DNA from: Nephrocerus scutellatus
Lineage: Eukaryota; Arthropoda; Insecta; Diptera; Pipunculidae
NCBI GenBank assembly: GCA_947095585.1
Contig: OX352761.1
Span: forward strand, 95,437,333 to 95,501,332
DNA: 64,000 bases
Reading direction: 5' to 3'
The notes under the pieces were generated by a model, which worked only from the letters and a program-made list of their open reading frames with translations, was not told the origin of the DNA and did no database searches. Numbering within the stretch: the stretch's first letter is position 1; each line of letters begins with the position of its first letter. A program made the position numbers and the translations under genes. This document shows positions 13,076 through 63,223 of the stretch, piece by piece.

Positions 13076-13479
13076 TTCAGAATTTTCAGGTGATCCACAT
13101 AGTTAACCGGTTTGTATCCGTATTCTAGTTGCAGCTTAATAACACATCTAGCAGCTGGCAGGAGTGAAAGCCCTGACCCAGAAAACTATAGATTCGACAC
13201 TAATATCAACATAAAAAACCATTAAGACCCTCGAAATCCTTTTAAGCGTGCGTTAATTAAAAGAGATACTATACAACACCACACCCCGTCGACCCACCTC
13301 TTTCTTAGCTTTGAATGATGATGCAGCTGCGGACAGCGCAGAGACGGCAAATGCTTTTCAAGCCATCATCAAATCCTGATGTTACAGCTAACACGACATT
13401 CATGTTTTTCATTGCCTTACAAAGAGGACTGCCATATGTCAAAACTAATTTTTGATTTAACGACAGAATTAATAGCAGC

Positions 13480-14285
<806 letters not shown>

Positions 14286-59421: not shown

Positions 59422-59830
59422 TACTTTCTTTTACATATTAAAAGAAAGTGTAGTAATCATAAAAATTTTCGAACTAGGGATTTTTGCAAATTTACCCATC
59501 ACACCTGAATCAGAAAAAGCGGAAAAAATGTCTGTCTGTCTGTGTCCACTCTACAGCCGAGACGGCAGAGCTTATGTGAATAAAAATTCATATTTAAGCT
59601 TTTTACATAAATTGTGAGGTGTCAGTTGATTTTGACGGAAATCTGACAACCGGAAGTGACAGTTCACTTGGGCAGTTTTTCGAGTATTTGGAAATAACTT
59701 AAAAAGTACAGCTCTTATGAGACATCTTTTAAGTGAAAAAAATAGAAAGAAAAATAAATAAAAAATAAATATACATTTACTAGAGTCCGTTAAAGAAAGT
59801 CGTGTTATGACCACACCTCCATTTTTATTT
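59422..59830 (+). repeat. Dispersed repeat family B, second long copy
   Basis: This is colinear with 51437-51875: TAGTAATCATAAAAATTTTC, GAATCAGAAAAAGCGGAAAA, TGTCTGTCTGTCTGTGTCCA, CTTTTTACATAAATTGTGA, then the A-rich block and AAAGAAAGTCGTGTTATGAC. It has about 40 bp (GGTGTCAGTTGATTTTGACG...) that the other copy lacks. Confidence 0.75.
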
Positions 59831-60480
59831 TAAAAAAAAACAGCTACAAACAAACACAAGCGTCTTATCATGTTCCTTGGAACAGAATAGAAGTGCTAGT
59901 TCTGTGGAAATCCTAAAAAATACGACATAAGATTGCCTTATTTGAAGTTAATTCCAAGAAAAACTATCGCTTGGCTACTCTGACTTGACCAACGCACAAT
60001 GATCTGTTTATAGAATTCATTTCTTTTTATTAAATTTTGTACGGTAAATTCCCAATTTCAGTGACTAGTGACGAGTATTTCCCGATAATAATGACCCTTA
60101 GGTTGTCGGTTCGTCACGTCGCGAAGTGGGAAATCGTATTGTGCTAATGAATAAAACGCCAACAATAACAAACAACGCAACGATCCTTTCAATAAATTCT
60201 TATATTCTTAGGAAAAAATAATTAACGAAGATGTTGAATAGTGTAAGACAAAAGTGCAACAGAATCAACAACGACATTTTCCAATGCACTATTTAGTCAT
60301 TTGAAAGTTATAAATTTGAAAAAAATGTTTTTTATTGTGCGCTAAAAACACCAAAAAAACTTCTTGGGGAAATAGCTGCCAATGATCCTGACCATGCTTC
60401 AGCCATCGAATGTAACCAAGGATGGAACTTTTTGAACTCTTTGGCTTTGTGTGTGTAAAGTTTACTCTGGAGATACGCAA
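59831..60480. other. No recognised feature
   Basis: AT-rich DNA with no recognised motif. A 63-codon - strand frame (60480-60289) is unrecognised. Confidence 0.4.
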
Positions 60481-60530
60481 AAGTTAAAAGTCAAAACTTC
60501 TGAAACACCGGAACTTTTGGGTGTATAAAA

Positions 60531-60788
60531 ATGAAAATCGCTGGTTATATTGGTATATTAGCATTTACAGTGCTTGTATATATTCGTTCTGGGTATACCC
60601 TGGATGGGAAATTTTCTGACGAAGTGTAATATAAATACAACATTTATTATGGTGTAGTCCCAATACACAAATGGTGTGAAAGTAACTATAAGCGTACTTA
60701 TTTTTTCTGTTGTTGTTTTATTTTTTAGGAGAAAAAATCTTCAAGCTATCTTTTGGTTAAAAATAAGCCAATAATTACAAGCGTCTAG
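60531..60788 (+). CDS. Possible two-exon gene for a small secreted peptide
   Basis: ATG at 60531, preceded by TATAAAA, opens MKIAGYIGILAFTVLVYIRS then GYTLDGKFSDE, a convincing signal peptide with a hydrophobic core. A donor-like GTGTAA (60624) and a pyrimidine-rich acceptor ending TTTTTTAG (60728) would join 60531-60623 to 60729-60788. The extension is EKKSSSYLLVKNKPIITSV and stop, giving 50 aa. Unspliced, the frame stops after 32 codons. No family is recognised. The donor is weak, and the support is only the signal-peptide pattern and splice-like sites, so this is tentative. Confidence 0.3.
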
Positions 60789-61026
60789 GTACTAATGTGT
60801 TCTTCGATGTAGTGTCTGATAAGCGAAATAGAACTTTTATACTCATTTTTTTTTGACTGGATTTTCAGCTTGGACATAAAGAAGATTTGCCTTGGCCAAG
60901 AGGTCGATAGGTAAAACTCTCGAGATTACCAAAATACCTGGCTTGTGAAGTTGTGGGACAGCAAAAGTCTTTACTGTCTGAACAATGGACTCCAGTAAGC
61001 AGTGGGTGACATTTTTTTTTAGGAAC

Positions 61027-61239
61027 TGTTATGGAGCGAGGTCCCACTAGGGGTTCTGCCACTGGCACGCTCGCGGTTGCTCGGCTAAGCTCGCCAGGCC
61101 AGACGGGTGTCACTTACCATGAACAAAAAAAATTTTTGTCGTGTCGACTTATAAAAAGGTGAATAAAAAAAGGGACAGGAAAAGGGAAGGATATCCTCTC
61201 AGTCCAGTTGCAGTCAGGTCGTTCCTTCCTTTCATAACA
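61027..61239 (-). mobile_element. LTR (213 bp) of a small retroelement
   Basis: TGTTATG at 61027 and CATAACA at 61239 form perfect 7-bp inverted ends in the TG...CA style of LTRs. The first ~80 bp recur at 62731-62826 (GGAGCGAGGTCCCACTAGGG, CTCGCGGTTGCTCGGCTAAG). The orientation is set to - because the partner LTR is followed by a primer-binding site on that strand. No strong polypurine tract was found beside it. Confidence 0.7.
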
Positions 61240-61465
61240 TTAAACCTGTGACTAAACTACTCTATATTAACCTATATTAAAACTTTTAAGAAAATATTTC
61301 ATTTCCTTAAATAATTTACTTATCTACTACCTAATTCTATTCTAGGAGGAATGACCTGGTTGCATCTGCACCGAGGCATCGCAAAACCGTCAAAGAAAGG
61401 GTCGACTTTACTAAGTCCATCTGTTCGTAGTCCGTCGAGTCATATCTGAAAAGCGCCGAGAGAAC

Positions 61466-61816
61466 TCACCGTGGGATCAACAACCCCAGCCACACACCTT
61501 CAGCCCATTGATCACTACCTAGTAAACTATCTACTCCTTCCTTGTCTCGACTACTATCTAGGTTCATATTATTTAGCACTTGATCAAAGCGTTCTTCTCT
61601 ACCTTTTTTTGAATGGCTACTTTCTACATTAGAGACACTCGACTTTGATTTATTAATGCCGAAGTCTACTGATGTGGAACCAGCATTACTTTGTCCTCTA
61701 ATTTTAATTAAGGCTCCTCCTGAAGCTTTTCTCTGGCTTTGCCTCGTCTGAACCCTCGATCTCTCGTTGGGGCAGACTTTAGGGACAGCACCAGTCTTTT
61801 TATTATGACTGCTCAT
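61466..61816 (-). CDS. 116-codon basic, Ser-rich frame inside the LTR element
   Basis: This is the only sizeable frame between the primer-binding site and the 3' LTR. It reads MSSHNKKTGAVPKVCPNERS, then RVQTRQSQRKASGGALIKIR and SSVSNVESSHSKKGREERFD. It is basic at the N-terminus and Ser/Lys-rich, with no zinc knuckle or enzyme motif. Its position suggests a Gag-like remnant, but that is inference only. The element has no polymerase frame and would depend on another retroelement. Confidence 0.35.
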   Translation of the reverse strand: MSSHNKKTGAVPKVCPNERSRVQTRQSQRKASGGALIKIRGQSNAGSTSVDFGINKSKSSVSNVESSHSKKGREERFDQVLNNMNLDSSRDKEGVDSLLGSDQWAEGVWLGLLIPR

Positions 61817-61839
61817 AATTGTTTTATAAAGGTTATATC

Positions 61840-62539
61840 CTCAGGACAAAAAAATAAGGAAATTCCTCTCTTCAAAAAAAAACTAAACCGTTAAAGCGGA
61901 TTTTTCTTTCCTTCTTCAAAAAAATATAAAAGATTTTATGAAAATGTTAGTAAACAAACAAAAATTCAAAGATTGAGTTTATTGATTTGATATTATAATT
62001 TTAAATCAGATGGGCTGATGTGTGGCTGGGTCAGTTCTCCCATGATCGTTCTCAAAGCTCAGAAATTGTAGTCTATCCTAGTCTTGTAAGTCCAGTCGTA
62101 GTCGGTTTCCTTGACGATTTTGCGGAAAGTCGTCCTAAGTCAGTAGAGGCTTCGTCTCATCCCGGCGAATCGCAACTCAAAGCACTGGCGAGTAGCACAA
62201 AATTCAGGATTTATTAAAATCCTTGAATCGGAATTGTTAACTCGTTCGGAGAGTAGTCGACGTCCAAATTGTCATGTCTAGTCTTCTGTAAAAAGGTAGT
62301 TTGGAATGAGAATTATGGGAATTAAAATGGGAATAAGGGAAGTTTTGGAAATGTAAGTTAAAAAGGTTATTTCTTAAAAGGGAATTTATCAAAAAAAGTA
62401 AAAGAAAATGATTAAACTTATGTAAGCTACGTTAAAAAAAAAGGAATTAAAAAGAAAGATGCTATACTACCATCGTTTGTCGAAAGCCAGTTACTTCTTT
62501 TCGGAAATTCCTGTCCTTCAAGAAACGATGGGTAAAGCC
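61840..62539. other. Interior of the LTR element, no feature recognised
   Basis: AT-rich sequence between the putative Gag-like frame and the inverted LTR piece. Frames here are not recognised. Confidence 0.4.
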
Positions 62540-62652
62540 GGACATCCTTCCCTTTTCCTACCTACCCTGTCCTTTTTTTATTCACCTTTTTATAAGTCAA
62601 CAATTTTTTTTGTTCATGGCGAGGTGTCACTGGTAAGTGACAAGGACCACCC
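62540..62652 (+). repeat. Inverted copy of the LTR interior next to the tRNA sequence
   Basis: Its complement reads GTGGTCCTTGTCACTTACCA, then ATGAACAAAAAAAATTGTTG, ACTTATAAAAAGGTGAATAA and AAAAGGGAAGGATGTCC. This is colinear with + strand 61090-61190 of the LTR. It is thus in opposite orientation to both LTR copies. The 10-bp word AAGGACCACC here pairs with GGTGGTCCTT at 62819-62829, on the far side of the tRNA and LTR end. Confidence 0.75.
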
Positions 62653-62728
62653 GCCCGGCTAGCTCAGTCGGTAGAGCATGAGACTCTTAATCTCAGGGTC
62701 GTGGGTTCGTGCCCCACGTTGGGCGCCA
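62653..62728 (+). tRNA. Complete tRNA-Lys(CUU) sequence with CCA, probably a copied primer
   Basis: A full cloverleaf is present: 7-bp acceptor stem (GCCCGGC with GTTGGGC, two G-U pairs), D arm GCTC...GAGC, anticodon stem TGAGA/TCTCA with anticodon CTT at 62686-62688, and T arm GTGGG-TTCGTGC-CCCAC. Position 58 (62710) is T rather than the universal A; the rest matches fly tRNA-Lys-CUU as I remember it. CCA is encoded at 62726-62728, which eukaryotic tRNA genes do not do, and no T4 terminator follows. Two bases later the LTR end begins. It therefore reads as the complement of an extended primer-binding site rather than a normal gene. Confidence 0.85.
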
Positions 62729-62730
62729 TT

Positions 62731-62826
62731 TGTTATGGAGCGAGGTCCCACTAGGGGTTCTGCTACTGGCAAGGACGTCGCGACACGCTCGCGGTTGCTC
62801 GGCTAAGCACGCCGGACGGGTGGTCC
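62731..62826 (-). mobile_element. Truncated 5' LTR of the same element
   Basis: The - strand reads ...CCTCGCTCCATAACA, ending at 62731, then two A's and the 18-nt primer-binding site (62728-62711). Compared with 61027 it has an extra AAGGACGTCGCGAC and the variant GGGTGGTCCTT. The rest of the LTR is cut off by RTE copy F at about 62827. Confidence 0.75.
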
Positions 62827-63223
62827 TTTTTGCTTGCACCCAAGTCTCGGATACATATGTAAGTATTGGTATGACCATTATCTTATATATCAGCAGCTTA
62901 GATGTTATGGTTAAGTTCCTGGATTTGATGAGTCTTGAGTAGGCTTTGTTGGCTTTAAGCAACCTTACGCGTATTTCTGGTTCCATGCTGTTATCGGCTG
63001 CTACAGATGACCCGAGATAGTTAATGGATTGCACTACTTTAAATTCGCGCTCCAATATTTGAATTGAGGGACAAATCTTCTAGTCGCAGACTTGGCCACC
63101 ATGTACTTTGTTTTGCTCTCATTTATGTGCAGCCCCAGATTTCGTGCCACCTGCTCTATCTGTATGAAAGCTTCCTGTGGAACTCTTCGGCTTCTACCAA
63201 CTATGTCAATATCGTCTGCGTAA
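62827..63223 (-). mobile_element. RTE-like LINE, copy F (short)
   Basis: This is the internal part only. The - strand includes LGLHINESKTKY-type text near 63120-63140, YLGSSVAADNSMEPEIRVRL, RNLTITSKLLIYKIMVIPIL and the TWVQA junction. It breaks off at the remnant of YADD (complement of GTCTGCGTAAG) near 63223, where another LINE begins. Confidence 0.8.

Follow-up and report, generated by a model that had tools for sequence, protein, structure and literature searches.

The window, that is, the whole stretch of 64,000 nucleotides of Nephrocerus scutellatus DNA analyzed here, contains at 62653-62728 on the plus strand a complete copy of tRNA-Lys(CUU), including the CCA end. ARAGORN found this copy as the only tRNA in the whole window, Lys(CTT), and it matches Rfam RF00005 with 61.3 bits (E 7.9e-11). 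When we compared it with human tRNA-Lys(CUU), using the sequence given in a passage of PMC8216282, 72 of the 73 gene-encoded bases were equal. The single difference is a T instead of an A at tRNA position 58, which corresponds to window position 62710. After the tRNA body the plus strand continues with CCA, TT and then TGTTATGG.., which is the end of an LTR on the minus strand. Read on the minus strand, the order is ..CCATAACA-AA-TGGCGCCCAACGTGGGGC-A-CGAACCC.., corresponding to the LTR end, an AA spacer (62729-62730), a canonical 18-nt primer-binding site that is the exact complement of tRNA positions 59-76 (62711-62728), the base opposite position 58 and the remaining tRNA. The 18-nt site matches the window only once with up to three mismatches allowed, as compared to a mean of 0.02 in shuffled sequences. 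The arrangement ..CCATAACA-AA-TGGCGCCC.. is that of an LTR retrotransposon primed by tRNA-Lys and is present in the window as well as in other loci of the family; the AA after the LTR end also occurs in the family loci matched, where the pattern of our script required it. The earlier note on this DNA had claimed a full tRNA-Lys(CUU) with CCA two bases from an LTR end, an exact 18-base tRNA 3' end, and a T for A at 62710 in an otherwise normal cloverleaf, and our analysis agrees with it on each of these points.

We rejected an ordinary tRNA gene at this position: CCA is present, we read GGTTCGTGCC, and the first TTTT lies 98 bases downstream. A Pol III terminator, which had been described as absent, is indeed missing at the usual close distance, but TTTTT does occur 98 bases downstream (62827). 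CCA in the DNA is what a reverse-transcribed primer tRNA leaves behind, and we found it in the window and at other loci of the host genome. In addition, the only changed base falls where the RNA would carry a methyl group on its Watson-Crick face, if m1A58 is presumed for this species.

To the right of the tRNA lies the R-U5 end of an LTR (62731-62795, minus strand), which was recognized by alignment to a second LTR of the window and ends with CCATAACA. Its R region probably starts at ACCGCGAGCG, as judged from the junctions of three other loci (L004, L007 and L008), two of which (L007 and L008) begin there; a start at AAGGACC was dropped, as all three loci point to ACCGCGAGCG. Upstream of R is a remnant of U3 (62796-62826, minus strand), also found in other LTRs, which is broken at the junction with a LINE, where by eye the two share a 3-base overlap, AAG. 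The LTR end beside the tRNA that the earlier note had described is therefore there, but it is not a whole LTR, as only R-U5 and this short remnant (62731-62826) are left. The interrupted element (62827-63190, minus strand), which we take to be of the non-LTR type from its reverse transcriptase motifs, continues past the break in its other copies within the window. We rejected a simple insertion of an LTR element into this LINE, since no LINE match is found to the left of the break (59500-61030).

Beyond the 5' end of the tRNA, which is intact, the sequence is not the leader of the element but an LTR in the opposite orientation (62006-62652, plus strand), identified by alignment. It extends from near its start, which is approximately at TGTGTGG or slightly before, to U3 close to R, and is joined directly to tRNA base 1. 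The locus has hence been rearranged. The family has a second LTR in the window, at 61027-61512 on the minus strand, again in the opposite orientation to that at 62006-62652. The left and right LTRs of the window differ by many indels, with 280 of 309 aligned bases of the LTR at 62006-62652 equal to the left LTR, so that the locus as a whole is not accounted for by a single, simple round of reverse transcription. The LTR left of the tRNA ends with AAGGACCACCC (62642-62652, plus strand) directly before tRNA base 1, and the same AAGGACCACCC begins the right-hand piece (62818-62828), sharing its first letters with the LINE. The tRNA/R-U5 unit is thus flanked by a perfect inverted pair. Perfect 11-mer inverted pairs within 260 bp number 66 in the window; only four of them have at least six G/C, and two of these four are the AAGGACCACCC pair in overlapping frames. 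We also looked for the marks of an insertion made by integrase: the right end of the locus lies inside the LTR, and by eye no target duplication is seen. Open frames and Pfam revealed no gag-pol reverse transcriptase, RNase H or integrase at the window locus. A short open frame between the LTRs (61466-61837, minus strand) has no Pfam family and no homologue at E <= 1.

Some further features of the window and of the searches deserve mention. A perfect 7-bp hairpin (TGTCACT-GGTA-AGTGACA, 62625-62642) lies in U3 beside the arm of the inverted repeat, and a long simple repeat of the CA/TG type (13469-13993) reads as an open frame. The tRNA and LTR patterns had no match in viral contigs, the archaeal and bacterial collections returned nothing useful, and two matches of the 18-mer LTR end in bacterial genomes were judged to be due to chance.

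The LTR resembles the tRNA 5' end at the junction

The right-hand piece continues after AAGGACCACCC with GTCCGGCGTGCTTAGCC, and the tRNA starts with GCCCGGCTAGCTCAGTC. This continuation of the LTR shares 11 of 15 and 13 of 18 bases with the tRNA 5' end. In the sequence outside 61000-63000, a match of this quality is found at 6 of 123,970 positions (11 of 15) and at 1 of 123,964 positions (13 of 18). Given the base composition of the LTR, its chance at one position is 4.1e-4 for 15 bases and 1.4e-4 for 18 bases. Other lengths are less striking, with 222 of 123,984 positions for 6 of 8, 24 of 123,976 for 9 of 12, and 11 of 123,960 for 13 of 20. The corresponding site in the other LTR equals the tRNA 5' end at 12 of 15 bases, and the likeness is therefore older than the junction. 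At the junction itself, base 2 is the letter of the tRNA, as would be expected if the finished tRNA copy had served as primer and the LTR as template.

Ordinary loci of the family and genes for tRNA-Lys

We searched the host assembly (613 Mb in 9 contigs, including the window) with positions 62653-62830, which returned 46 matches listed (best 40 of 769 candidates scored), and fetched 20 loci. Fourteen of these (L009-L022) are ordinary loci of the family without a long tRNA; several lie close together, and their counts are not independent. Twelve of the 14 have primer-binding sites of 12-13 or 18 nt: 12 nt in five, 13 nt in two, exactly 18 nt in three and 18 nt with one mismatch in two, the other two being unmatched by the site-finding script. 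The full tRNA is therefore not a module inherited by the whole family, which is what a comparison of primer-binding sites in other LTRs, proposed in the earlier note, was meant to distinguish.

The same note had asked whether genes for tRNA-Lys in this genome carry T58 and CCA. Scanning the assembly for tRNA positions 42-73 with up to two mismatches, we found at least 13 places, 12 of which are CCA-bearing copies (with a mutated CCA in one, L063). The only CCA-less, gene-like place has A58 and two mismatches, and the scan detected neither an ordinary tRNA gene with T58 nor an intact ordinary tRNA-Lys(CUU) gene within two mismatches. The ordinary gene may be unassembled or may have been missed. 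The scan thus shows one damaged gene-like copy, at C4:40714679. In addition, 13 loci (L040, L042-L050 and L052-L054) host a multi-copy tRNA-Lys-like repeat that lacks CCA and has a deleted T-arm, and that is probably a SINE.

Position 58 is altered in several copies of the primer tRNA

A search of the assembly with the tRNA returned 42 matches (best 40 of 87 candidates scored), and a query with A58 gave nearly the same set. We examined 31 of the 42 (30 and L063); the other 11 look SINE-like from their match ranges. Full or nearly full copies have T58 in the window and in L039 (from tRNA base 12), and G58 in L026 and its copy L027, in L038 and in L051 (from base 5). A58 is found in L028 and its copy L029, L030, L036 and its copy L037 (from base 12), L031 (from base 5), L032 and its copy L035, L034, L041 (from base 3) and L063 (from base 12, with the mutated CCA). 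One further copy, L033, is gene-like and CCA-less. By eye, the CCA-bearing copies adjoin an LTR-like end, except L031, where the LTR end is unclear.

For the count of changes we left out L027, L029, L035 and L037, which duplicate other loci, as well as L030 and L036, which may share their origin with L028; single-base gaps (L032 and L038) were not scored as substitutions. In the resulting 11 collapsed loci, base 58 is changed five times (T, T, G, G, G), as compared to 27 changes at 793 other sites (P-value 1.8e-5) and 3 changes at 130 other A sites (P-value 2.7e-6). When the window is left out, base 58 is still changed in four of ten loci (P-value 3.5e-4). Keeping L030 and L036 apart and omitting L063 gives 5 of 12 against 26 of 868. 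At least four changes in ten loci at any position, again with the window left out, were reached in 555 of 20,000 permutations. Position 58 had been named beforehand by the earlier note, which justifies the specific test; had it not been, the excess there would be moderate. The changes are always to T or G, never to C, in the 11 loci. Two copies, in the window (T) and in L026 (G), have no substitution other than at position 58, and a third copy free of other substitutions (L028) has A58. Overall, six of the 11 collapsed copies keep A58, hence read-through need not leave a change. The earlier note had supposed a single event; with 11 collapsed loci and widespread 23-nt sites (see below), read-through has to be seen as recurrent.

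Other positions of the tRNA copies also show recurrent features. A is replaced by T at position 37, presumably t6A as in known tRNA-Lys, in two copies (L039 and L051). The copies in L036/L037, L039 and L063 stop or jump at position 12, which is a possible second pause site. Finally, position 73 is A rather than G in L034 and L038 (site TGGTGCCC), which would fit an origin of this base in the RNA of the element itself or in another isodecoder.

Junctions of the tRNA copies

The sequence beyond the tRNA differs from locus to locus. It is a reversed LTR in the window, the start of R in L004, L007 and L008 and, by eye, in L061 within a related LTR. In a second LTR family it is pol, namely in L026, which lies within L055 together with integrase domains, and in L041, which lies within L056 together with RT_RNaseH. 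The remaining copies are joined to other or unassigned sequence.

The L055 locus (C5:50608757-50619764) is an array with the order LTR-tRNA(G58)-pol-LTR-tRNA(G58)-pol-LTR. It starts with TGTGACGG, ends with CATTACA and has CCTA on both sides in the printed flanks, an agreement of 4 bp with a probability by chance of 1 in 256. LTR termini at both ends and a duplicated target are the marks of insertion by integrase, and to judge from its sequence L055 appears to be what is expected of an integrase-made insertion of cDNA with the whole primer. Integration of the tRNA-bearing product, as claimed earlier, is indicated for L055, with its CCTA repeats, but not for the locus in the window, which ends inside the LTR. 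The first two LTRs of the array are identical over their last 400 bases, and the array contains 101-bp tandem repeats. Another unusual arrangement is found in L023, a concatemer of R-U5, antisense tRNA, R-U5, a 15-nt site, sense tRNA (from base 12) and reversed LTR. It is present twice (C3:83302.4-83302.8k and 83307.0-83307.4k), within a 3.4-kb duplication of 98.9% identity.

Widespread sites reaching tRNA position 54

The pattern TTCGNGCCCCACGTTGGGCGCCA occurs with up to two mismatches at 646 places of the host assembly, and the reversed pattern used as a control at none. Among the 100 places listed of the 646, which are all exact and all on contig C1, a hand count gave G at base 58 in 83, A in 12, T in 5 (one of them the window itself) and C in none; many G58 sites lie in arrays, so that the 100 are not independent. 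We fetched 20 stretches, chosen to include the A and T types, with 21 occurrences (11 G, 7 A and 3 T). Agreement with the tRNA ends after position 54 in 20 of the 21 and after position 53 in one, and TTACA lies within approximately 12 bases upstream in 19, which look LTR-like by eye. Bases complementary to tRNA positions 58-54 therefore follow the 18-nt site, as in an over-extended primer site, with base 58 itself often being non-complementary.

With 12 further stretches we obtained 33 occurrences in all, enriched on purpose for A and T. They form 34 pairs at least 88% alike over at least 150 nt, and 16 of these pairs differ at base 58. In particular, L083 (T) has a single mismatch, base 58, to each of L086, L087 and L092 (G) in 169 aligned bases of 220, the other 51 being unaligned. 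Since the latter three are nearly identical to one another, the comparison counts as one observation. Inheritance, rather than a new change each time, may account for most of the G58 seen in the 23-nt sites.

A proposed mechanism and its alternatives

We consider it probable that the observations above have one explanation, namely that synthesis overran the primer tRNA past m1A58, was re-primed on the LTR and at the window entered the chromosome by an irregular route, with other jumps, one integration and the 23-nt sites elsewhere. In the window, the reverse transcriptase of the element itself would have copied its mature primer tRNA into DNA. The plus strand would be extended across U5 and on into the tRNA, at that stage not yet removed from the minus strand, would pass the presumably methylated A58 by inserting an A (T58 on the tRNA strand) and would run off at tRNA base 1. 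The overrun 3' end would then be unable to pair with the normal 12-18 nt site and would instead snap back onto the LTR sequence that resembles the tRNA 5' end, so that U3 would be copied backwards. At other loci, the same overrun product would have switched to the R start, pol or some other sequence, and normal integration seems to have taken place at L055. A milder overrun that stops at T54 would produce the widespread 23-nt site, variable opposite m1A58. The alteration of position 58 far above other sites supports the proposal of the earlier note that reverse transcriptase misread m1A58 and copied the entire primer tRNA.

A broader reading of the same data, towards which we lean only slightly, is that the base opposite m1A58 in the primer-binding sites of this genome's LTR retrotransposons is hypervariable and renews itself. 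With every round of reverse transcription the methylated base would be read again, G, A or T would be written and synthesis would often stop at T54, so that chromosomes would record both tRNA methylation and the error of reverse transcriptase. The elements would have evolved a tolerant 23-nt site, and complete overrun to base 1 would be an accident that keeps recurring and gives rise to inverted, tandem and internally deleted elements. This reading is weakened by the fact that the three one-mismatch pairs share one element.

The alternative that survives best, which we nevertheless regard as unlikely, is that minus-strand strong-stop cDNA, with the tRNA still on it, was taken up at a break in the chromosome, where a host polymerase copied the tRNA. 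It implies the same tRNA copy and the same reading of m1A58 as the overrun mechanism and differs only in the route of entry. It would account for the structure of the unit at 62653-62826, which is a tRNA with an antisense LTR end, and for a right junction with a 3-base overlap and no LTR terminus. Moreover, passages of PMC10802722 describe the capture of Ty1 cDNA intermediates at breaks in yeast. On the other hand, it leaves the tRNA-like sequence at the left junction unexplained, and the CCTA on both sides of L055 makes the tRNA copy there seem part of an integrase-competent cDNA.

A primer transcribed from a variant tRNA gene with U58, which could not be methylated and would be read through without error, is very improbable in our opinion. 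Passages of PMC3832253 and PMC13191261 report that A58U tRNA-Lys3 disturbs HIV reverse transcription. Yet the assembly searched yielded no CCA-less T58 copy within two mismatches, and the G58 copies would require a second variant gene. Faithful copying of the tRNA, followed by a chance mutation of base 58, is more improbable still. A single base is changed in the window copy, A58 persists in the six collapsed copies mentioned above, and the permutations for any position reach four of ten in 555 cases. Against this, the sole change in 76 bases falls on position 58, which is changed, to T and G only, in four of the ten other loci (P-value 3.5e-4).

Hardly credible, finally, is a tRNA-derived promoter module or a tRNA-type SINE: Helenus elements exist in Hymenoptera and other animals (passages of PMC10886601) and 13 of the 30 loci examined in the host genome contain tRNA-Lys-like repeats, but the tRNA of the window lies outside the LTR as a primer-binding site, antisense to the element and with CCA, the ordinary family loci examined have no full tRNA, and the SINE-like repeats lack the T-arm bases and CCA. 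A Helenus-type LTR was rejected for the same position of the tRNA, beyond the LTR end and not inside the LTR.

Comparison with known systems

Primer read-through and over-extended sites are already known in retroviruses. According to passages of PMC13191261, plus-strand strong-stop DNA of HIV terminates at m1A58; a tRNA lacking the modification is copied in vitro as far as its 5' end; positions 55, 54 and 37 are minor stops; and lentiviruses and spumaviruses carry a 'primer over-extension sequence'. As in those viruses, m1A58 would have been passed here, minor stops would fall at 55/54, and complementary bases beyond the 18-nt site are found in the genome. The differences from what these passages describe are that here the elements are LTR retrotransposons fixed in chromosomes, and that the base opposite m1A58 is mostly mismatched (G58/T58) among the places listed and is variable between near-identical copies. 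Bypass of m1A misincorporates in a manner that depends on the 3' neighbour, and m1A-G gives a low C signal (passages of PMC4787781). The 3' neighbour of position 58 in the window tRNA is G59, and we count the changes to T or G and never to C as support, given the low C signal in the published m1A-G contexts.

Reverse-transcribed tRNA joined to LTR ends has also been seen before. Passages of PMC12220202 describe tRNA-Gly between the LTRs of a circular MMLV clone and beside an HIV provirus, with CCA in the HIV case; those copies are non-cognate and lack 4-5 bases at the 5' end, whereas here the primer is cognate, the copy is complete to base 1 in several loci, the event is recurrent and one locus has target-like repeats. 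Copying of the primer tRNA covers 12 nt in yeast Ty elements, similar to the 12-13 nt sites found in some members of our family, but the genomic site of the Ty elements is reported as not derived from tRNA (passages of PMC5371799), while the tRNA-derived bases appear inherited here. The capture of Ty1 cDNA at double-strand breaks is alike in that intermediates of reverse transcription are joined by end joining; no tRNA copy with a change at base 58 is noted in the passages of PMC10802722. Helenus and TRIMp3 share with our loci a tRNA-like sequence in an LTR retrotransposon, but in the passages of PMC10886601 it lies inside the LTR as a Pol III-type promoter, and not beyond the LTR end. A literature search covering titles, abstract openings and passages returned no report of base-58 variation in the primer sites of transposons, which is not proof of absence.

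What the passages of PMC13191261 say on the stop at m1A58 and on the later fate of overrun products comes from HIV, studied in vitro and in cell culture. The host genome appears to keep a natural record, with candidate sites by the hundred, the spectrum of bases at a single RNA modification and a series of rescue junctions. This record points to the inheritance of primer tRNA sequence by an LTR retrotransposon, reported not to happen in yeast Ty (passages of PMC5371799), and to the possible integration of a cDNA together with its entire primer. If this is true, past tRNA methylation and the errors of reverse transcriptase would be readable from genome sequence alone.
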